From NCBI GenBank assembly GCA_017471705.1, contig JAFUSH010000016.1:1-41427 (forward strand): DNA of 41,427 nucleotides, given 5' to 3'. The notes below the pieces were generated by a model. It made no database searches, was not told the DNA's origin, and saw only the letters and a program-made list of their open reading frames with translations. Each line of letters opens with the position of its first letter. The first letter of the stretch is position 1. Shown in pieces: positions 3,084-13,549 of the stretch. Source of the DNA: Alphaproteobacteria bacterium. Lineage in GTDB: Bacteria; Pseudomonadota; Alphaproteobacteria; RF32; CAG-239. The position numbers and the translations under genes were made by a program.

Positions 3084-4262
3084 TTATCCTTTCATCACTA
3101 CATACGCACAGTTTTTGACATACAAAAAGCAATTCTGCAGTTCGTTTTTCAGCAATCGCCAACCGCGCATCCGCAAGTTATAAGCATTTAAATGAATCAT
3201 ATATCCGCAATACGAATTAAAGAATGCTCTGGTATCTTCTGCCCGTTTAGAAGTAACCTTGCCTTTTTTCAGGTTCATTTCGGTTATTTTCTCGAAGAAG
3301 TTGCGTTTTAATCTATTTCCGGCCAGAATCAGCGCTCCTTTCAAGCGCACGCCGACAAAATTGACTCCCTTTTGATAGTGCTGCAGATAAATTTTTTTAG
3401 GATGCAGCACCAGACTAAGTTTTTGCTTCAGCAACTCTCTGATTTTCGCAATCAGTTTTTTAAGTGTATCTTTACTGTTTCCTATCAGTACAAAATCATC
3501 CACATAACGCACATAATCGACTTGCGGCAGAGAATCAACATAGCCATCCAAATCATTAAGATAGAAATTGGCAAAAATCTGTGAGGTAAGGTTTCCTATA
3601 GGCATACCATTCATATCGGCGGCATAAAACAAGCTTTTGTGCCGCGGCAATCCGTCCCACGAGCTGTATTTTCCGCGTCGGATGCAACTGTATTGAGGTC
3701 GGTTCAGCACTATCATTTCGACTAATTTTTTGACCAGATTTTTATCGCTTTTCATATAATATTGCTCAACAAACTCCAATAATTTGCGGCACAGCAAATT
3801 GCAATCGATACTCATAAAAAATGCCTGTATATCCATTTTCAGCACGTAACATTCGCCGTTAGCCTGTTTGGCGCGTTTTTGAATATAATCGGCGACGCGT
3901 TTAACGGCGTAGAGAGTTCCCTTACCTTTGCGGCAACTGCAACTGTTCGGACTGAAAACCTTTTCGAAATATTGTTCTAATTTGCGAATAACCAAATGAT
4001 GCACCACTCTGTCACGGAAGTCGGCGGCAAAGATTTCGCGTTTGACCGGTTTTTCGACAATAAAAGCAATAGAACGTCCGATTTTATAAGTTCCGTTGTT
4101 TATTTGCTGCCATAGCTCGATCAGATTATGCTCGTAGTCGACTTCAAAGCTGAGAGCGTTAAGCGTTTTACGCTTATGCTTGCGGCATTCGAAATAAGCT
4201 TCGAACAAATCTTCCAGCGCTATCGGCGCGTTAAAATCAAACAGTTCAAGTTGTTGTTCCAT
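3084..4262 (-). CDS. DGR-type reverse transcriptase
   Basis: This 392-residue reverse transcriptase is the enzyme of a diversity-generating retroelement. It copies the template-repeat RNA into cDNA with errors at adenines. Visible RT motifs include VLKMDIQAFFMSI (palm strand A), MPIGNLTSQIFANFYL, and the catalytic YVDD at residues 253-256. The GNLTSQ variant, in place of the QGxxxSP seen in group II intron and retroviral enzymes, is typical of DGR reverse transcriptases. No maturase or endonuclease domain follows, and the length fits DGR enzymes. The start is placed at MEQQLELF (4262) because AAGGAAAA precedes it; an upstream in-frame ATG at 4310 lies in a repeat. It is the last gene of the minus-strand DGR cassette, downstream of avd and the TR. 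Confidence is high because the TR/VR pair confirms the system. Confidence 0.96.
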   Translation of the reverse strand: MEQQLELFDFNAPIALEDLFEAYFECRKHKRKTLNALSFEVDYEHNLIELWQQINNGTYKIGRSIAFIVEKPVKREIFAADFRDRVVHHLVIRKLEQYFEKVFSPNSCSCRKGKGTLYAVKRVADYIQKRAKQANGECYVLKMDIQAFFMSIDCNLLCRKLLEFVEQYYMKSDKNLVKKLVEMIVLNRPQYSCIRRGKYSSWDGLPRHKSLFYAADMNGMPIGNLTSQIFANFYLNDLDGYVDSLPQVDYVRYVDDFVLIGNSKDTLKKLIAKIRELLKQKLSLVLHPKKIYLQHYQKGVNFVGVRLKGALILAGNRLKRNFFEKITEMNLKKGKVTSKRAEDTRAFFNSYCGYMIHLNAYNLRMRGWRLLKNELQNCFLYVKNCAYVVMKG

Positions 4263-4280
4263 AATATTTTCCTTTTTTAA

Positions 4281-4850
4281 TCGGTAGACCCCTTGACGAT
4301 TGCTGCGCAATCGAGGGGTGACTCTCTTAATGCTTGCGCAATCGAGGGGTGACTCTTGTTGTCATTCCTCCGACTGCGCGGTGCGTCAGTCGGTCAAGGA
4401 ATCTGACCTTCAATGCTCTAGCATTGCTTCCTTATTGATTCAAGCGGTAGACCCCTTGACCTCGCTATGCTCGGAGGGGTGACTCTCTTAATGCTTGCGC
4501 AATCGAGGGGTGACATTACTATATTGTCATTCCTCCGACTGTGCGGCGCATCAGTCGGTCAAGGAATCTGACCTTCAATGCTCTAGCATTGCTTCCTTAT
4601 TGATTCAATCGGTAGACCCCTTGACCTCGCTATGCTCGGAGGGGTGACTCTCTTAATGCTTGCGCAATCGAGGGGTGACTCTTGTTGTCATACTGAGCCG
4701 TGTTGGCGGCGAAGTATCCAACAACGCCGTCGGCGTTGTTTCGTTCCGCAGGAACGAAATGGATTCTTCACCCATTCGCTATGCTCAGGGTTCAGAATGA
4801 CGAAAAGAGTCGGCTCGTCCGAGAATGACAATAAAAAAGTGCCGTACTGC
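4281..4850. repeat. Tandem hairpin repeats between TR and RT
   Basis: Three successive copies of a composite repeat begin with GGTAGACCCCTTGAC at about 4282, 4446 and 4612. Each is followed by AGGGGTGACTCTCTTAATG or a close variant. The first two continue with GTCATTCCTCCGACTG..CAGTCGGTCAAGGAATC and a second small hairpin (TTCAATGCTCTAGCATTG). The third switches to a GTCATACTGAG..GAAGTATCC unit, nested hairpins near 4720-4760, and an inverted GGATTCTTC..TTCAGAATGACG unit near 4760-4803. The copies are nearly identical to one another, which suggests recent duplication. No gene is called in 4263-4876. Confidence 0.75.
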
Positions 4851-4876
4851 ATAAAGGAGTTTATATTTTCTATACA

Positions 4877-4982
4877 AAAAGCGGAAACTACTTACATACC
4901 GCGTAATTGTTGCTATTGTTGTTGTTGCGATTGTTGTTGTTCAAGTTCCCATTGTTGAGATTCGCGTTGAACGCGTTGCAAC
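4877..4982 (-). repeat. DGR template repeat (TR)
   Basis: This 106-base segment matches 6003-6108 at the 3' end of the target gene except at 17 positions. All 17 are T on the plus strand here, meaning adenine on the transcribed minus-strand repeat: 9 A-to-G, 6 A-to-T and 2 A-to-C. Read in the target frame the TR has 16 AAC/AAT codons, the signature of engineered-looking DGR templates; 13 of them differ in the VR. The 31 bases at its minus-strand 3' end (4877-4907), including five adenines and the stop codon, are identical in both, as expected for the initiation-of-mutagenic-homing segment. It is noncoding here and lies between avd and the RT gene. Confidence 0.97.
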
Positions 4983-4988
4983 CCATTA

Positions 4989-5022
4989 GGCAAACTTTTA
5001 ATTCAAACGTAAAAGTCTTGCC
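4989..5022 (-). other. Hairpin immediately 5' of the template repeat
   Basis: GGCAAACTTTT (4989-4999) pairs with AAAAGTCTTGCC (5011-5022), with one bulged base, around an 11-base loop. On the minus strand it ends 6 bases before the TR begins, inside the avd-TR spacer. In the studied Bordetella phage DGR, RNA flanking the TR is structured and needed for cDNA synthesis. A similar role here is inference. The rest of the spacer (5023-5192) shows nothing recognisable. Confidence 0.4.
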
Positions 5023-5192
5023 GTAAAAGTTTTCGCTGTATCATTAACTTCGCTTTATATTACAAAAGAAAAGTGGAAAACCCTTTTTATATAAAAAAAT
5101 GCTCTCTCAGACCCGCACTAAACGGTATCTGACTCCCGCACACTCCTTTAGCTTAAATTTTCCTTTCCTGTTGGCAGCGGCTCCTGTTCTGT

Positions 5193-5582
5193 TTAAGGCT
5201 CCGCGTGCGATTGTTGCGTTTCGATTTTTTTCTGCAAGCGTACTTTTTCGTGTTTACGCCAAGCATTTGATTGTTTACCGATATTTTCCATCATCAACGA
5301 CAATTGCGCATATTTTCTTTGGGAAATAATATTCAAATCGTGCGCCAGTCTTATTTCCAGACGCACCGCCTCAAACCACGCGGCAAAATCTTCCAGATAA
5401 GGGACTTTATCCTGATGGCTGTTAGCTCTGTATATGCATCTGAAAAGCTCCATAGTGTCTTTTTGAATATCCTGTCCGAGAGAAAATTTATATTCCCGCG
5501 GAAAGTTTGTGGTTACTTTGTATAGTTCCACCAACAGCTTATAGCTTTCCAAAAAAATCGGCAATGTATCGCTTCTTGACAT
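5193..5582 (-). CDS. avd: DGR accessory variability determinant (Avd-like four-helix protein)
   Basis: This is a 129-residue, entirely helical-looking, basic protein of the Avd / S23-like four-helix-bundle family. Avd proteins form a positively charged pentamer that binds the reverse transcriptase and the TR RNA and is required for mutagenic homing. Visible features are four amphipathic helices (about residues 8-25, 36-55, 60-85, 88-118), an aromatic-rich third helix (YLEDFAAWFEAVRLEIRLAHDLNIIS) and a lysine/arginine-rich C-terminal tail. Length and position, directly upstream of the TR and RT and downstream of the VR gene, match canonical Avd. AAAGGAAAAAT precedes the ATG. The family call rests on pattern and context; sequence divergence in this family is high. 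Confidence 0.88.
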   Translation of the reverse strand: MSRSDTLPIFLESYKLLVELYKVTTNFPREYKFSLGQDIQKDTMELFRCIYRANSHQDKVPYLEDFAAWFEAVRLEIRLAHDLNIISQRKYAQLSLMMENIGKQSNAWRKHEKVRLQKKIETQQSHAEP

Positions 5583-5614
5583 ATTTTTCCTTTCTTAGTC
5601 GGTTGTTGTTTGCT

Positions 5615-5880
5615 TAATCGGTTTAAGCGGTTTAATCGGTAGACCCCTTGACCTCGCTATGCTCGGAGGGGTGACTCTCTTAATGCTTGCGCAATCGAGG
5701 GGTGACTCTCTTAATGCTATCGCAATCGAGGGGTGACATTATTATACTGTCATACCTCGCAGTGCGCTGCGCGTCACTGCGTCAAGGTATCCTTTCTTCC
5801 AACGCGTCAGCGTTGCTGCCGTATTATTTTAATCGGTAGACCCCTTGACCTCACTTCGTTCGGAGGGGTGACTTTATCAT
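5615..5880. repeat. Hairpin repeats between the target gene and avd
   Basis: Two more composite copies of the intergenic repeat family lie here. GGTAGACCCCTTGACCTCGC..GGAGGGGTGAC appears at about 5638-5674 and again at about 5836-5872. Between them is GTCATACCTCGCAGTGCGCTGCGCGTCACTGCGTCAAGGTATCC (split: GTCATACCT at about 5751, CAAGGTATCC at about 5783), followed by TTCCAACGCGTCAGCGTTG. The hairpin core differs from the copies near 4360 and 4530 while the outer arms keep the same design. Confidence 0.7.
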
Positions 5881-5925
5881 CCTTTATTTTTACTGTTCTT
5901 ATTTACGATGTCTTTCGGGGGGGGT

Positions 5926-6001
5926 CTTCCGCGGGGCTTTTAAATGCCCCGCGGAAGGGGATAAGGGACAAGTCCGCGGGGTCCCCCGTCCCCGCGGATT
6001 T
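5926..6001 (-). other. Tandem GC-rich hairpins adjoining the VR (candidate DGR homing structure)
   Basis: Hairpin 1 is a perfect 12-bp stem (CTTCCGCGGGGC 5926-5937 / GCCCCGCGGAAG 5946-5957) with an 8-base loop. Hairpin 2 is a 9-bp GC-rich stem (TCCGCGGGG 5973-5981 / CCCCGCGGA 5990-5998) with an 8-base loop, extended by A-T, A-T and G-T pairs to 5970-6001. Hairpin 2 starts only 1-4 bases past the end of TR/VR identity (6003) on the coding strand. In the Bordetella phage DGR a GC-rich hairpin/cruciform a few bases after the VR promotes target recognition. No such structure adjoins the TR here. A role as transcription terminator for the target gene is the alternative; there is no clear T tail. 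Confidence 0.7.
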
Positions 6002-6002
6002 T

Positions 6003-6108
6003 AAAAGCGGAAACTACTTACATACCGCGTAATCGTTGCTACTGCCGTAGTAGCGATCGTTGTTGCGCAAGTACCCAACGTAGAGACCCGCGTAGAACGC
6101 GGTGCAAC
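6003..6108 (-). repeat. DGR variable repeat (VR) in the target gene
   Basis: This is the diversified copy of the TR at 4877-4982. It covers the last codons of the target protein, its TAG stop (6014-6016) and 11 further bases. Compared with the TR, Asn codons became Thr, Tyr, Gly, Tyr, Val, Tyr, Arg, Asp, Tyr, Tyr, Gly, Ser and Asp, and three remain Asn. The enrichment in Tyr, Gly, Ser and Asp is typical of binding surfaces. No mismatch is found at a non-adenine site. Identity stops sharply at both ends. Confidence 0.97.
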
Positions 6109-9100
6109 TATTTTGTCCAATATTGGACGAATAACTGGTATCTGTCCAAGCATAGTAGACACTATAGCTGTTATACAACGTTCTCATAGCAGTCATCACC
6201 GCGCTAGAGCAACTTCCGGTTGAAGTAGTCCCTATAGTACCTCCACAATTGTAATCAGCAGCGCTCAGCAAGTTCTTACCCTGCGCCTTGCACCAGTTAT
6301 ACGCGCTCCACCAGTTAAATCCGCCGGTAGAACTGAAGTAAACAGTGCCGATTCCGCTTATATTAGCCGTACGAACAGTTCCGATATCCTCATAAGTTCC
6401 GGTCAAGTTCGCTGCATTATAGTAACTGGCGTTACTGTTATTGCAGGAACCCGATGTAGAACCGTAAGAAGTTATCTTACAATACTTACCACTACCACCG
6501 GTACCTGTGCAAGTACCAATGCCAACTGATACACAAGTTCCGTTTGAGCAGGTCTTGCCGCTGCCGCAAGCCGTGGTGGTCTTGGTATAGCAAGTATTAC
6601 CGCCGTAAGCAGCGCTTGCGCAGCTGACCGTAGAATTCCCGTCACAGCCCGCCGTGCAACTGTCAACATATCCGCCGTCCGAACAAGGTCTTTGATTACA
6701 TTTGCCGCACAACTGGTTGCCGTAATAGCCGCTTGTCGCCAAACTATATCCGGTGCCGCAACTCGTTACGTCTTTGCTGTAACCGCTTGTGCAACCGTTC
6801 TTAGCCGTACAAGTACCGCGCAATTCATCGCCGTAGTAGCAGGAAGTATACGTCCAACCCGTAGAACCGCCGGCGCCGCAATCCGCAACCTTGGTCTTGG
6901 TCTTATCACCGCTGCAGCTCTTTTGCGTACACGTTCCGCATTGCGTATTGCCGGCATAGTTGCTGGCTCCCGTCCAAGTCCATCCGCTGCTTCCGGTTGT
7001 TCCGCAATCCGCAACTTTGGTCTTTTGATTGGCGGTGCAAGATTTTGCCACACATTGATAGCATACACTGTCACCGCTGTAACCATTGGTCGCTGTGCCT
7101 AAGCTCCAGCCGCTGGCTCCGCTGGTGCCGCAGTTTGCCGCACTGGTGGCGTAGCCGCTGGCACAAGATTTTGCCGATGTATGGCTGTAACAAACTGTCT
7201 TGTTGCATAACGTGGTATTGCCGCAATTCCAACCCGAACCGCAAGTGCCGTACGGATACGAACCGGAACAGGTCGGGGTTTGTCCCGATTTGAAAGCGCA
7301 AGTGCCCCAAGTACCGTCGTTCCAACCCGTACCGTTATTCTTACACGTAGGCGTGCGGCTCTGCGTGCCGGTCGTAGCCGCGCAAGTGGTGCCGCTGACT
7401 ACGCAATCCTGCGTTGTTCCCGGTTTGGTAAACTCAGAGCAATTACCATAAGTTCCGTCATTCCAACCCGTACCGTTATTCTTACACGTAGGCGTGCGTT
7501 CTTTCTTACCGCAGGTGCCGCAGTGTGCATATGTGGCAGGTTGGGTAAACTCAGTACAACCGCTCCAAGCCGGATCAGTCCAACCCGTACCGTTATTGTT
7601 ACAAGTAACCGTACGCGTCTTCTTACCGCAGGTGCCGCAGTGTGCTAACTCTGCAGGTTTGGCAGGCGTGCCTATATTATAGTAGCAAGTTGTGCTTGTT
7701 CCGTTGTCAGCTGACGGATTACCGCTGCTGTATGTATGACAATCGGTATTGGTTACCGCCGGCGGTGTTGTCGTAGCATCAGTTGCCATCTTGCTCGGAT
7801 TATAGTAATAGGTCACGCCGTCAGCCGCCGTAACTTTTGAATATTTGTAGCAATTTGTGCGGTTAGACGCAGTCACGCAGCTGCCGTTTGTCAGGTTGTA
7901 GTGCGTATATGTGGCGCCGCCGCAAGATACCGCCGCTTTGGTGGTGTCTTTGGTGTAGCAGCCGCTTGGCGTAGACGCATACCAATACGAGCTTGTCGGA
8001 TATGTCGTGGTGCAAGCCGTGCAGCTTGATGCTCCGGCATTAGACCATTTGCCGCTGCCGCAAGGCGTACAAGTGCCTGAACCTGCCGCGGCGTATGTAT
8101 TTGCCTCGCATTGAGTCTTTTTGCCGTCTTTGCAGGAATAGCCTGCTTCACAGTTCTGAGTACAACTGCTTGAGCCTGCTGTTGACCATTTACCATCCGC
8201 GCACTTACTGCAGGTACCGGAACCGGCAACCGCATAAGTTCCGGCTTCGCATTGCTCTTGCTTGCCGTCTTTACAAGCGTATCCTGCCGGACAATCCAGC
8301 GTACAACTGCCGGATTTGGCATTAGACCACTTGCCCGCCTGACAATTCGTACAACTGCCCGAACCTGCCGCGGCATATGTACCTGCCGGACAATTCGAAC
8401 AGGTGCTTGAGCCTGCAACCGCATAAGTTCCGGCTTCGCATTGCTCTTTCTTGCCGTCTTTACAAGCGTATCCTGCCGGACAATCCTGAGTACAGCTCCC
8501 TGAGCCGGCCGCCGACCATTTACCGTCAGCGCAGTTACTGCAGGTGCCGGAACCGGCAACCGCATACGTACCCGCCGGACATTGAGTCTTGTCGCCGTCT
8601 TTGCAGGAATAGCCTGCTTCACAATTCTGCGAACAGGTATTGGAGCCTGCTGTTGACCATTTACCGTCAGCGCACTTACTGCAGGCGCTTGAACCGGCAA
8701 CAGCATAAGTTCCGGCTTCGCATTGCTCTTTCTTGCCGTCTTTGCAAGAATAACCTGCCGGACAATCCTGAGTACAGCTGCCGGATTTGGCATCTGACCA
8801 CTTGCCTGCCGGACAATTACTGCAACTGCCCGAACCTGCCGCGGCGTATGTGCCTGCCGAACAATTACTGCAGGAGCTTGAACCGGCAACAGCATAAGTT
8901 CCGGCTTCGCATTGTGTTTTATTGCCGTCCTTGCATTTATAACCGGCTTCGCAGTTATCCGTGCAAGCACTGCCGCGCCCTGCCGCCGACCATTTACCGT
9001 CAGCACAGTTAACGCAGGTATCTGCCGAAGTTGCGCCCTCGGCTATCGAGTATTTGCCTGCCGCACAGTTGGTGCAGGTGGTGCCGGCAACCGTGGCGTT

Positions 9101-10852
9101 ATAAGTGCCCTTGCCGCACTTGGTGCAGGTAAAACCGTAAGAATTGCTCGCCGCGGCTTGCTTATATCCCTTGTTGCAGCTTTCAACCTTATGACAGGTA
9201 TATGTGTTCTCGGTGGCGCCGCTGCCGTATACGTAAACAGTGGTGTCACGGGTAGCCGCCAACGAAGCGTTGACCGCACAGCCGGTCGCTAAATAGCAAT
9301 ATGTTTCATCACCGTCACCGTTGAAGTAACGCTTGCCGCCGGCGTCATAAACAAAGCGCGAATCTTTGTTAAGCACCGCAGCCGCGGAGCAACCGGTCGC
9401 GTTGTAGCAGTAAAGGTCTTTGTTCTCACCGCCCTGCTTGCGAACCAAACCGGAATCATACACAAAGTGCGCCGTATCGGTGGTGTTATCGGTATAAGCT
9501 TTGGCAGCGCAATCGGTTACATCAAAGTATTTAACCGTCGCATTGGTGCCGTTCAAATAACCGCTCGCACCATCGTCATACGCAAAATGCGTCGTTTTCT
9601 TTTCGTTTTCCGCATACGCATAACTGCCCTTGCCGGTGATGTTCCAGCAGGTTATATTGCTGTTAACGCCGCCCTTCTTGCGGGTATATGAATATGAAGC
9701 AAAATATTTGCTGTCAGGCTCTTCGCTGTACGCATACTGCATACAGTTTTTAATGCGGTAATAGGTGGCTTCGGTATCACCTCCGTCAAGATACGCCGTC
9801 GCGCTCTCGTATTCAAAATACGTCGGCTTTTCGGCGCTGTCATAGGCATAATCCGCCTTGCCGCTCACTATCCAACAGGTAAAACCGTTCTGCGTTTTGC
9901 TTGACGATTTGAAATACGTGGTATCCGGTTGGTTGCCTGCATAAGCGTGAACATTACAGCCGGTTACCTTATACACGCTGATGCCCGATGCACTGTCGGT
10001 CGAATACTTGAAATACTTGCCGTCAGGTTTTTGGTCGGTATATCCGTTGTCGGTATTAGCTCCGGTCGCCTTAAAGCATTGAACACCGTCAGCCAGTTTA
10101 TCGGAAACTTTGAATATCACCGTGCTGGGCGATTCATTCAGCCAACCGTTGACCGCATTGCAGCCCGTCGCCTTGTAACAAGTCTTTTTCTCGGTGACGG
10201 TGACGATTTCAGGTTCGGCAGAAGTATCTATATAACGCTGCGAACCGGTCTTGGTGTCTACCGTAAAGACATTGGTGTCGCGGGTTTCGGTAGTATATCC
10301 CTCGCCCACGCTTACCGCGTTGGCATAGCACTGCTTGCCGTTGGTGCCGCGCTTGGAGTCGTAGTTATAGCAATTGTTATCGCTCTTGCCCGGCTCACTC
10401 GTCGTATAATTGCCGCCGCTCAACCGAGCTATGTTATAATAACAGTCGCTCCTTTTAAGCATAGTTATCGTCGTTCCGGAAACAGTCGCACCATAGGTAT
10501 ATTCAGGCATTTGATATGTTGTGCAGTCATTAGGCTCAATCAAACCTTTCGACGCACAATCGCCTTTGGTGCAATATTCTTCAACCGGCGTGCATTTGCC
10601 GTTTATCCGATTTCCCGTGAAGCCGCTGTACGAATACTCATAACACGAAGTCGGACAGGCTTCCAATCCAGCCCTGTATCCGCTCGGAGTTGCTTTTTCC
10701 GTACACCTGAAATAAGTGCCTTGCGCATTCGTACACGAATCGCAATCCCACCCTTCTTCACAAGCTTGATTTTTACATTTGATTTGGGTTAAATAATACC
10801 CGATACACTGCTCGCCTTGGACAGCTTTAATAGCGGACCTCAGCTCGCCCAT
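6014..10852 (-). CDS. DGR target protein: giant Cys-rich surface-type protein with C-terminal C-type-lectin-like variable domain
   Basis: This is a 1612-residue open frame. About residues 1-560 hold degenerate 30-45-residue modules of the form YFxYxS...CYxxTGC. About 570-920 hold tandem cysteine-rich modules (GKWSxAGSxxC, CxAGYxCKDG, QCEAGTYAVAG) resembling the ephrin-receptor-like/GCC2-GCC3 repeats of surface proteins. About 1000-1100 hold CGTCGKKxRTxTCxNNGTGW repeats, and more Cys-rich repeats run to about 1480. The last 120 residues look like a C-type lectin fold (GGFNWWSAYNWCKAQGKNL...AWTDTSY...YAVCK) carrying the VR. The protein presumably displays a diversifiable binding domain outside the cell on a long disulfide-rich stalk; ligand unknown. 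The ATG at 10852 has no ribosome binding site. The true start is probably 10980, out of frame by one base across a G tract (see the leader entry). Confidence 0.93.
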   Translation of the reverse strand: MGELRSAIKAVQGEQCIGYYLTQIKCKNQACEEGWDCDSCTNAQGTYFRCTEKATPSGYRAGLEACPTSCYEYSYSGFTGNRINGKCTPVEEYCTKGDCASKGLIEPNDCTTYQMPEYTYGATVSGTTITMLKRSDCYYNIARLSGGNYTTSEPGKSDNNCYNYDSKRGTNGKQCYANAVSVGEGYTTETRDTNVFTVDTKTGSQRYIDTSAEPEIVTVTEKKTCYKATGCNAVNGWLNESPSTVIFKVSDKLADGVQCFKATGANTDNGYTDQKPDGKYFKYSTDSASGISVYKVTGCNVHAYAGNQPDTTYFKSSSKTQNGFTCWIVSGKADYAYDSAEKPTYFEYESATAYLDGGDTEATYYRIKNCMQYAYSEEPDSKYFASYSYTRKKGGVNSNITCWNITGKGSYAYAENEKKTTHFAYDDGASGYLNGTNATVKYFDVTDCAAKAYTDNTTDTAHFVYDSGLVRKQGGENKDLYCYNATGCSAAAVLNKDSRFVYDAGGKRYFNGDGDETYCYLATGCAVNASLAATRDTTVYVYGSGATENTYTCHKVESCNKGYKQAAASNSYGFTCTKCGKGTYNATVAGTTCTNCAAGKYSIAEGATSADTCVNCADGKWSAAGRGSACTDNCEAGYKCKDGNKTQCEAGTYAVAGSSSCSNCSAGTYAAAGSGSCSNCPAGKWSDAKSGSCTQDCPAGYSCKDGKKEQCEAGTYAVAGSSACSKCADGKWSTAGSNTCSQNCEAGYSCKDGDKTQCPAGTYAVAGSGTCSNCADGKWSAAGSGSCTQDCPAGYACKDGKKEQCEAGTYAVAGSSTCSNCPAGTYAAAGSGSCTNCQAGKWSNAKSGSCTLDCPAGYACKDGKQEQCEAGTYAVAGSGTCSKCADGKWSTAGSSSCTQNCEAGYSCKDGKKTQCEANTYAAAGSGTCTPCGSGKWSNAGASSCTACTTTYPTSSYWYASTPSGCYTKDTTKAAVSCGGATYTHYNLTNGSCVTASNRTNCYKYSKVTAADGVTYYYNPSKMATDATTTPPAVTNTDCHTYSSGNPSADNGTSTTCYYNIGTPAKPAELAHCGTCGKKTRTVTCNNNGTGWTDPAWSGCTEFTQPATYAHCGTCGKKERTPTCKNNGTGWNDGTYGNCSEFTKPGTTQDCVVSGTTCAATTGTQSRTPTCKNNGTGWNDGTWGTCAFKSGQTPTCSGSYPYGTCGSGWNCGNTTLCNKTVCYSHTSAKSCASGYATSAANCGTSGASGWSLGTATNGYSGDSVCYQCVAKSCTANQKTKVADCGTTGSSGWTWTGASNYAGNTQCGTCTQKSCSGDKTKTKVADCGAGGSTGWTYTSCYYGDELRGTCTAKNGCTSGYSKDVTSCGTGYSLATSGYYGNQLCGKCNQRPCSDGGYVDSCTAGCDGNSTVSCASAAYGGNTCYTKTTTACGSGKTCSNGTCVSVGIGTCTGTGGSGKYCKITSYGSTSGSCNNSNASYYNAANLTGTYEDIGTVRTANISGIGTVYFSSTGGFNWWSAYNWCKAQGKNLLSAADYNCGGTIGTTSTGSCSSAVMTAMRTLYNSYSVYYAWTDTSYSSNIGQNSCTAFYAGLYVGYLRNNDRYYGSSNDYAVCK
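8030..9130 (-). repeat. Tandem Cys-rich repeat array within the DGR target gene
   Basis: Within the coding sequence there are seven GKWS modules and six CxAGYxCKDG modules, alternating with CxAGTYAVAGSxxCSxC modules. The DNA units are nearly identical in places (recurrent TTGCCGTCTTT and GCATAAGTTCCGGC on the plus strand). Such arrays change copy number by recombination and may also be collapsed or expanded by assembly. Confidence 0.8.
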
Positions 10853-10980
10853 ACACTGCCCGCCGGGCAGAAAGCAGATTCTCGAGTAAGCGTCTGAGCA
10901 GAGGAGTACCGTTGTAATGAGTATATAATACCCCCCCCCCCCAAGATTTTTACGATTTTGCGTAAGATTTTTCTTCTCAT
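10840..10980 (-). other. Out-of-phase signal-peptide leader with 12-G tract (candidate phase-variation switch of the DGR target)
   Basis: On the minus strand AAGGAG lies 7 bases before ATG at 10980-10978, the only well-formed translation start for the target gene. It opens MRRKILRKIVKIL, then a run of exactly 12 G (10931-10942). With 12 G the frame ends at TGA 10842-10840 after 46 codons. With 13 G the frame continues GGGGYYILITTVLLCSDAYS and runs without a stop into the 1612-residue frame. That arrangement gives a basic n-region, hydrophobic core and S-D-A cleavage-like site, i.e. a secretion signal. The long frame has no ATG of its own between a TAG just upstream of 10980 and the RBS-less ATG at 10852. 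Either this is a slippage ON/OFF switch captured OFF, or a homopolymer miscount. Confidence 0.75.
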
Positions 10981-11315
10981 CGCTCTTCTCCTTCTAAATT
11001 CTACTTATCTCAAAGGCTTTTGCGCTATATGCACAAAAAACCCCGAACAGATTCACGGCACTATCACTAATGCCAAGTATACAAAGAGCTGTTGAGACTC
11101 CAAATCTTTTTGAGATTTCAGACACACTTGTGGCGTATCATAACTTCAATATATCACACTTTTTTAAAAAGAAATATGAATTTTTTGTGAACTTTAAAAA
11201 ATGTGGAAAATTTTGCAATCAAAAACAGCATAAAAAGCAAATATAATCATATTTAAATAAAAAAATACCCGACATCAACCAAATGACATCGAGTAAAATC
11301 TTAAAAAAAACATTC
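10981..11315. other. Intergenic region upstream of the DGR target
   Basis: About 335 bases without a gene. The part next to the target gene holds its ribosome binding site (AAGGAG, plus-strand complement near 10988-10993). I see no convincing promoter hexamers, hairpin terminator or repeat in the remainder, which is AT-rich. Confidence 0.4.
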
Positions 11316-12202: not shown

Positions 12203-13549
12203 ATGGAAAGGTCTCATAAATCGATGCAATACAATTTGGCTCTGGATAATCCGTATTTATCTATAAGTGAGATTGCAAATATAACAAATAAAAGCATAAA
12301 ATTCATAAGGAGAGAAGTTGCCTTAGGTAAATTAGAAAGTACAAAAAAAGGAAATAAAACATTAATCAATAAATCTTCTTTTGAACTATGGAAAAACAAT
12401 ATAAATACGGAGTACAACGAATATATAAATACAGTTGATTGTAGACTTTCTGAATATATTAATAAATCCAAAAGAAAAGCGGATATTGTTAATTGGGTTG
12501 ATATTGAAAATGAAATTAACAATATAGATGCATGGAAAGATAATAGCCAAATACGAGACTTTAATTTTATTGATTTGTTTACCGGAGCAGGAGGACTCAG
12601 TTGCGGATTGACAATGGCGGGAATGATGCCTGTCGGTTCAATTGAGATTATGCCCCAAGCTGTTGAAACTTATAAGTATAATTTCAGCAAAATAAAAGGA
12701 TTCACAGATAACGTTACTAACAAAGATATAAGAGAGACTTCTGTCAAAAATGATTTAATTAATTCCGTGAAGGATAGACATATTCATCTTATTGCAGGCG
12801 GTTTCCCTTGTCAGGGATTTAGTATGGCCGGAAATAGAATAGTCACAGATTCCCGAAATTCATTATACTTAGATATGTTGGAAATAGTTAAAAGAATTAA
12901 ACCTGATTTTGTTCTAATGGAGAATGTCGAAGGTTTAAGATCTATGTTAAACGGAAAAATTGAAGAAAAAATCATAAATGACTATAAAAACATAGGTTAC
13001 AATATAAATGTTACAGTTTTAGATAGTGCCGATTACGGAGTTCCTCAATTCAGACGCAGAGTTATCTTTATAGGTAACCGATTGGGAATTAAAAACTTTC
13101 ATCCTAAGCCATTCTTAAATGAAAAATCTTACAAAACAGTTGGAGATGCTTTGAATAAGTTTTTAGATATGCCTGAAAATAAAGAAATAAATCATATATT
13201 TGCCAAGACAAGTGATAGTATGAAAAAAAGATTGGAAAATGTGCCTATTGGTAAGAGTTTATATGGCAATTATAGCGATGCGTGGAAAAAAGTTGACTGG
13301 AACAAACCTTCTTGCACTGTCAAAGAAAATCACGGAGGAGTAAATATACACCCTATTTTAAATAGGGTTATGACCCCTAGAGAACTGGCTAAATTACAAT
13401 CATTCCCTGATGATTTCATATTCAAGGGAGCTAAAAAATGGCAATTGGTTCAAATAGGGAATGCTGTTCCGTGTTTATTAGGAAAGGCTATCGGTTTAGC
13501 TATACTATCATCGTATGATAGGAAAGAGAAGGAGAAAGATAATGACTAA
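12203..13549 (+). CDS. DNA (cytosine-5-)-methyltransferase of a type II restriction-modification system
   Basis: Methylates cytosine C5 in a specific DNA site using S-adenosylmethionine. The C5 family motifs are in order: FIDLFTGAGGLSCG (motif I, SAM binding), GGFPCQGFS (motif IV, catalytic Cys near residue 203), LMENVEGL (motif VI), GVPQFRRRVIFIG (motif VIII) and QIGNAVP (motif X). Residues about 16-60 (YLSISEIANITNKSIKFIRREVALGKL) form an extra N-terminal helix-turn-helix-like segment that may autoregulate the operon. The 448-residue gene is much richer in A/T than its neighbours, suggesting horizontal transfer. It overlaps the next gene by 8 bases. A second possible start is the ATG at 12224. 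Recognition sequence cannot be told from the sequence. Confidence 0.93.
   Translation: MERSHKSMQYNLALDNPYLSISEIANITNKSIKFIRREVALGKLESTKKGNKTLINKSSFELWKNNINTEYNEYINTVDCRLSEYINKSKRKADIVNWVDIENEINNIDAWKDNSQIRDFNFIDLFTGAGGLSCGLTMAGMMPVGSIEIMPQAVETYKYNFSKIKGFTDNVTNKDIRETSVKNDLINSVKDRHIHLIAGGFPCQGFSMAGNRIVTDSRNSLYLDMLEIVKRIKPDFVLMENVEGLRSMLNGKIEEKIINDYKNIGYNINVTVLDSADYGVPQFRRRVIFIGNRLGIKNFHPKPFLNEKSYKTVGDALNKFLDMPENKEINHIFAKTSDSMKKRLENVPIGKSLYGNYSDAWKKVDWNKPSCTVKENHGGVNIHPILNRVMTPRELAKLQSFPDDFIFKGAKKWQLVQIGNAVPCLLGKAIGLAILSSYDRKEKEKDND

Follow-up and report, generated by a model that had tools for sequence, protein, structure and literature searches.

Diversity-generating retroelements (DGRs) are able to make astronomically many variants, most of which are presumably useless or costly, and how a cell avoids the cost of a diversified surface protein is an open problem. 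The DGR of the Bordetella phage BPP-1, which targets a tail fibre, is annotated with mtd including the variable repeat (VR), avd, the template repeat (TR) and brt in this order on one strand. For the hairpin that follows the VR of BPP-1, the passages of Guo et al. (2011; PMC3240598) dealing with this structure describe that the stem is required and that length and sequence of the loop are critical, and they give GRNA as loop consensus of the phage hairpins, a tetraloop needed by BPP-1. The second type of system relevant here comprises the phase-variable poly-G loci of Campylobacter and Neisseria, in which the reading frame is set by a long run of G in the 5' part of the coding sequence and for which HsdS, methylase and acetyltransferase genes are typical. 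DGRs of phages also meet phase variation of host surfaces in the portion of PMC10053308 that touches on both, which is a different relation. DGRs and poly-G phase variation are each known kinds of systems, and for their apparent pairing on one gene, with a tract switch controlling the target of a DGR, no report was found in the searched open-licence literature.

Here, we analyzed a window of 41,427 nucleotides, which is contig C67 of an assembly (1.82 Mb, 89 contigs) from a bacterium whose relatives place it within the Alphaproteobacteria. Judged by its sequence, the window carries a complete DGR, a cassette of known kind, which is likely still functional in retrohoming. In addition, we consider it probable that a giant target gene has its final 30 codons rewritten by this DGR and that a 12-G tract toggles the very same protein.

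Genes of the Cassette and Their Genomic Setting

All parts of the cassette are located on the minus strand in the order target with VR, accessory variability determinant (Avd), TR and reverse transcriptase (RT), which is the order found in BPP-1 and confirms the initial annotation, according to which Avd, TR and an RT with GNLTSQ and YVDD motifs are all present in canonical arrangement. The RT (3084–4310, minus strand) comprises 408 aa if read from a TTG, matches PF00078 with an E-value of 1.5e-23 and contains the motifs IGNLTSQ and YVDD. A database protein identical to this RT (P0002, listed on 4 contigs, the longest of 42,032 bases) has only 392 aa, and therefore an ATG further in is the likely start rather than the TTG. 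In RTs of the DGR lineage the motif [IVL]GxxxSQ replaces QGxxxSP, and the IGNLTSQ of the window RT fits this lineage motif. Brt of BPP-1 also has the IG-LTSQ motif and is identical to the window RT in 100 of 362 aligned columns (28%). The Avd protein (5193–5582, minus strand) was identified by PF22296 (bAvd) with an E-value of 1.3e-20 and 74.3 bits at a cut-off of 40, and it reaches 72.7 bits with the Avd model NF033474, which is 7 bits below the cut-off of 80. An Avd is common to BPP-1 and the window; the BLASTP comparison of the two proteins was not significant (E 0.066), and a sequence search of the PDB found no chain for the window Avd.

The initial annotation had named, as an outcome that would speak against a DGR, an RT falling among the group II introns or the retrons. 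The best chain in a sequence search of the PDB is 8ub7 (“Reverse transcriptase”, E 2e-26), which we take to be the DGR reverse transcriptase of BPP-1, followed by the best group II maturase with an E-value of 8e-10. In a tree of 30 RTs, which includes two group II RTs as outgroup and is free of retrons, the window RT groups with P0003–P0005 (63–67% identical), and the two group II RTs are set off from it as a separate clade with a support of 1.000. The separation from group II RTs is upheld by the tree and by the best solved chain, whereas the top model in NCBIfam is a group II RT/maturase, at 103 bits compared with a cut-off of 300.

In contrast to the phage-borne DGR of BPP-1, the cassette is located among housekeeping genes, namely those for PgpA, trigger factor, RF3, peptide deformylase, TolB and a Mur ligase as well as tRNA-Leu, and therefore we regard it as a cellular DGR. 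A prophage origin was considered and ruled out by the housekeeping neighbours and tRNA-Leu. The tRNA is the sole match in Rfam, and promoter and terminator scans performed no better than on shuffled sequences. Next to PgpA there is a C-5 cytosine methylase gene (12203–13549, plus strand) with an N-terminal helix-turn-helix match, which precedes an ORF of 253 aa, a possible restriction-modification pair.

The Repeat Pair and Its Hairpins

The TR (4877–4982, minus strand) has a length of 106 nt and is present in the assembly in only one further copy, the VR (6003–6108, minus strand), which encodes the last 30 residues of the target and its stop codon. As in BPP-1, the VR is thus positioned at the 3' end of the target gene. 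The adenine-specific pattern described in the initial annotation was reproduced in every detail: the gapless alignment covers 106 columns with 17 differences, all 17 at an adenine of the TR as read on the coding strand (9 A>G, 6 A>T and 2 A>C), and between 4907 and 4976, 17 of 32 adenines are changed compared with none of the 38 other bases. Over the whole repeat, all 68 non-A bases are identical in TR and VR, and the probability that 17 random differences among 106 positions with 38 adenines all hit an A is 1.5e-9. The 37 adenines in the coding part of the TR are found almost exclusively at codon positions 1 and 2 (18 each), and the differences to the VR are distributed over position 1 (11) and position 2 (6).

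A scan for A-biased repeats, which covered the initial 15 kb of the window, yielded TR/VR as the single pair. Comparison of the TR with the whole 1.82-Mb assembly revealed matches to itself and to the VR, apart from one 15-base match with an E-value of 0.58, and no further VRs were found in this assembly. A copy of the 3' end of the repeat was not found in viral contigs. A repeat of another type, 79 nt in length, is interspersed among the components of the DGR and surrounds TR and Avd (4278–4356, 4439–4517, 4604–4682 and 5631–5709); its 26-base core is present in three copies in the window and in one more copy, with one mismatch, elsewhere in the genome.

Downstream of the VR a GC-rich inverted repeat (5973–5998, minus strand) with a 9-bp stem and an 8-nt loop starts 4 nt past the VR and is predicted to form a hairpin or cruciform. 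Further downstream of the target gene lies another GC-rich inverted repeat (5926–5957, minus strand; DNA fold) with a 12-bp stem, an 8-nt loop and no T-run behind it. With the same stem test no hairpin was found after the TR. In BPP-1, this test recovered the known 8-bp stem with the loop GAAA 4 nt past the VR, so the offset of 4 nt is common to both systems, whereas the 4-nt GRNA loop of BPP-1 differs from the 8-nt loop in the window. In a comparison of the window with ten relatives, a perfect stem of at least 6 bp within 70 nt was found after the VR in 10 of 11 loci and after the TR in 2 of 11. Random 70-mers contained such a stem in 276 of 1800 cases in nine relative loci and in 75 of 500 cases in the window. 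The resulting p-values are 7e-8 after the VR, which is too small because several loci are close relatives (L054/L055; L058/L059/L061), and 0.52 after the TR. The only locus lacking a stem after the VR is L049, with just 52 nt left before the contig end, and the count omits the pair of relative L062, which sits among TR-like copies. Some of the hairpins among the 11 loci precede T-runs and may be terminators.

The Target Protein and Its Leader

The target ORF as listed (6014–10852, minus strand) encodes 1612 aa from an internal ATG, including 132 cysteines (8.2%), and the body of about 4.9 kb is free of stop codons. Whereas BPP-1 targets a tail fibre, the target here is a Cys-rich protein of at least 1612 aa with a predicted leader containing a G-tract. 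The C-terminal domain with the VR (6017–6382, minus strand) is predicted to have a C-type lectin fold on the basis of a structural model, and the VR corresponds to the last 30 residues of this modelled domain. By sequence, nothing significant was found for the VR domain in Pfam, NCBIfam and the PDB, and none of 1616 candidate proteins matched the C-terminal region of the target at an E-value of 1e-5. For the N-terminal region, five relatives with 36–47% identity were detected, to which the target itself does not belong; one of them (P0126) has the start of a paralogue on contig C63 of the same genome. We infer that the target sits on the surface and binds something.

The frame of the target stays open upstream of the internal ATG (10852) through the hydrophobic stretch YYILITTVLLCSDAYS up to a run of 12 G (10931–10942, minus strand), which is the longest G-run of the assembly. 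Directly upstream of this tract and in another frame, there are a Shine-Dalgarno sequence (AAGGAG, 10988–10993), an ATG (10980–10978) and the basic n-region MRRKILRKIVKIL. Taken together, these parts form a leader (10883–10993, minus strand) composed of start signals, basic n-region, G-tract and a hydrophobic segment ending in CSDAYS, which is predicted to be a signal peptide with the tract inside its coding region. Position 10980, the end of the element in the initial annotation, is where the probable genuine start codon begins; in the assembly, however, the 12-G tract, which that annotation does not mention, puts this ATG into a different frame from the ORF of 1612 aa. Even without the leader the ORF of 1612 aa stays open, but its product would be devoid of a signal peptide. 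Counting frames, one tract length in three would rejoin start and body.

Additional evidence comes from three paralogues on contigs C48, C49 and C63 of the same genome, which share with the target the sequence GGAGAAGAGCG-ATG and the overall shape of the leader. Their leaders are in frame, continuous and tract-free, e.g., MQIKKFKRIAQALRKGSCILILLCILFSDAYAKVCFLPGGRC, and by eye the position of the tract in the window corresponds to K-G in the paralogous leaders. As the paralogous leaders are continuous, the homologous leader of the target is to be read as split by the tract. C63 is the sole full paralogue with 1296 aa, whereas C48 is a truncated gene of about 70 codons and C49 is cut by the end of its contig. 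A similar leader, out of frame and with an interruption in its G-tract, is found on contig C241 of the sister genome G106. In a second similar leader of this genome the contig (C61) ends where the tract would begin; such a break can occur at an unstable or repeated site, and other causes are possible. The length of the tract at the target is known from one assembly of the species, and it would be expected to vary between cells. A slipped-strand ON/OFF switch likely gates the DGR target.

G-Tracts in the Genome and the Genus

Long G-tracts were searched for with a minimum length of 9 in the window's own genome (G000) and of 10 in 25 congeners, an approach that may favour out-of-frame cases splitting an ORF. 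The own genome contains six runs, all of which are 10–12 bases long and none exactly 9, whereas 0.33 runs of at least 10 and 1.3 runs of exactly 9 are expected by chance in random sequence with the composition of the window. The probability for six or more runs of at least 10 is 1.3e-6, calculated with the G+C content of the window and not of the genome, and this value is too small because two of the six tracts are located in near-identical gene copies and are not independent. Among the congeners, 23 of 25 have no run of at least 10, G106 has one and G110 has two.

Besides the target's, six tracts split an ORF, and all of them are out of frame as assembled. In an AlgX-like gene the tract occupies an identical site in two species, represented by G000 and G106, with the AlgX match on the downstream half only. 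A Dam-like gene with a tract at a common site exists in three copies, with 10 and 11 G on contig C42 of G000 and 10 G in G110; the Dam match is restricted to the upstream half and lies 0.4 bits below the cut-off. In G110 an HsdS gene is split, and Methylase_S, the specificity domain, matches on both sides of the tract. The two remaining tracts of G000 precede an ORF whose start is signal-like (C11) and another ORF (C74), and neither tract is inside a clear ORF. As in the poly-G loci of Campylobacter and Neisseria, the tract sets the frame in the coding region of the target, the tracts of the window's genome exceed chance, and those of the genus hit typical gene classes. In contrast to these loci, the gated gene would be the target of a DGR.

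With regard to single copies, the two Dam-like genes of G000 (C42:17240–17249 and 59370–59380; L036 and L037) are alike in the stretches shown, and their tracts differ by one base. The 10-G tract between the halves of the type I restriction specificity gene (L133, G110:C16:5951–5960) might indicate a phasevarion.

Proposed Mechanism and Alternative Explanations

In the mechanism we propose, the transcript of the TR would be reverse transcribed with errors at A, and the resulting cDNA would take the place of the VR, guided there by the hairpin and by the 3' end that is identical in both repeats. In this way the first and second positions of AAC/AAT codons would be randomised in a lectin-like face of the protein. 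Independently of this, slipped-strand mispairing during replication would add G residues to the tract or remove them and thereby connect the body with the secretion signal or disconnect it, so that only a fraction of the cells would display the current variant. We are inclined, with some reserve, to go one step further and to regard the locus as a two-layer generator of antigens or adhesins, in which the DGR rewrites the lectin-like tip and the G-tract in the signal peptide picks the cells that display it. If this is true, OFF cells could silently generate or retain variants, which are released from selection there and shown later. Gating the target stochastically between ON and OFF would then be a simple answer to the problem of cost, namely to diversify while hidden and to display when it pays, and two classic local hypermutation systems would be joined on one gene. 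The proposal is directly testable, since a single metagenome sample can give both VR and tract, and long reads can give both on one molecule.

An ordinary DGR with a simply expressed target, in which the G-tract reflects a miscount in the assembly or has arisen by chance, seems rather unlikely to us. None of the DGR features depends on the tract, and the sequence is only an assembly consensus, in which homopolymers are error-prone. A homopolymer of 12 bases can be miscounted, so that the OFF state seen in the assembly may be erroneous; nevertheless the tract itself would remain, as a miscount of one base would not abolish a long tract. A chance run is difficult to reconcile with the six runs of 10–12 in this genome and none of 9, with the 23 congeners that lack such runs, and with the three paralogous leaders that are free of a tract at that place. 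The broken frame in the assembly could also be taken as the sign of a young pseudogene, i.e., a target recently inactivated by the tract with the DGR decaying alongside. We judge this to be highly improbable, as the long body is still devoid of stops, the frames of RT and Avd are open, and the VR has diverged far from the TR at A only, without a single non-A change between the repeats.

Finally, the RT could belong to another class, such as group II introns, retrons or defence RTs, and the repeat pair could be coincidental. The top NCBIfam model points in this direction, albeit far below its cut-off, and we give practically no weight to this explanation in view of the adenine-only pair, Avd, the BPP-1 order, the RT motif and several relatives with about 50% identity that have their own TR/VR pairs. 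The DGR assignment made in the initial annotation is instead supported by the combination of A-only differences, RT, Avd, BPP-1 order, a hairpin after the VR only and the modelled C-type lectin fold.

Related Retroelements

A related RT (E up to 1e-20) is present in 25 of 152 genomes of the family, and within the genus of the window (26 genomes) exclusively in the window's own genome; the cassette is therefore distributed in a patchy manner. Named relatives of the RT belong in part to Alphaproteobacteria and otherwise to Bacteroidia, KSB1 and Brumimicrobium. A first scan of the genome collection for the RT gave no match, and a scan with an RT alignment yielded 21 loci, the best with 50% identity over a long match. 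As the best locus of the collection is only 50% identical, the relatives with 63–67% identity are not among these 21 loci.

An A-biased repeat pair was found in 11 of 27 relative loci, many of the others being short or cut by contig ends. Ten DGRs of the family (L049, L052–L055, L058, L059, L061, L063 and L069) have RTs that are about 50% identical to that of the window and likewise TR/VR pairs, and in nine of the ten a stem follows the VR. By eye, their VRs mostly end in the YYWSSSEY...VRPVLAF kind, which is unlike the window, and the two that were tested showed weak Lcl_C matches. None of the ten loci contains a run of G or C of at least 8, at least three of them lacking the start of the target gene.

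In two of these loci the DGR is directed at a flagellin, L069:6522–8879 (minus strand, G048:C2) and L049:24–1442 (minus strand, G028:C185), both with a Flagellin_N match and L069 also with Flagellin_C. Around the VR both have a weak match to Lcl_C below the cut-off, and the differences between the repeats are located at A in 13 of 15 cases (L069) and 13 of 14 cases (L049). Flagellin is among the DGR targets listed in a section of PMC6642488, and these flagellins are possibly more striking than the window itself. Some cassettes contain several template-like copies. L063 has three TR-like copies for one VR (5406–5477, 5676–5747 and 5945–6082), L054 has two TR segments for overlapping parts of one VR (5255–5331 and 5483–5557), and L062 contains TR-like copies (820–1515) whose mutual differences fall mostly at A.
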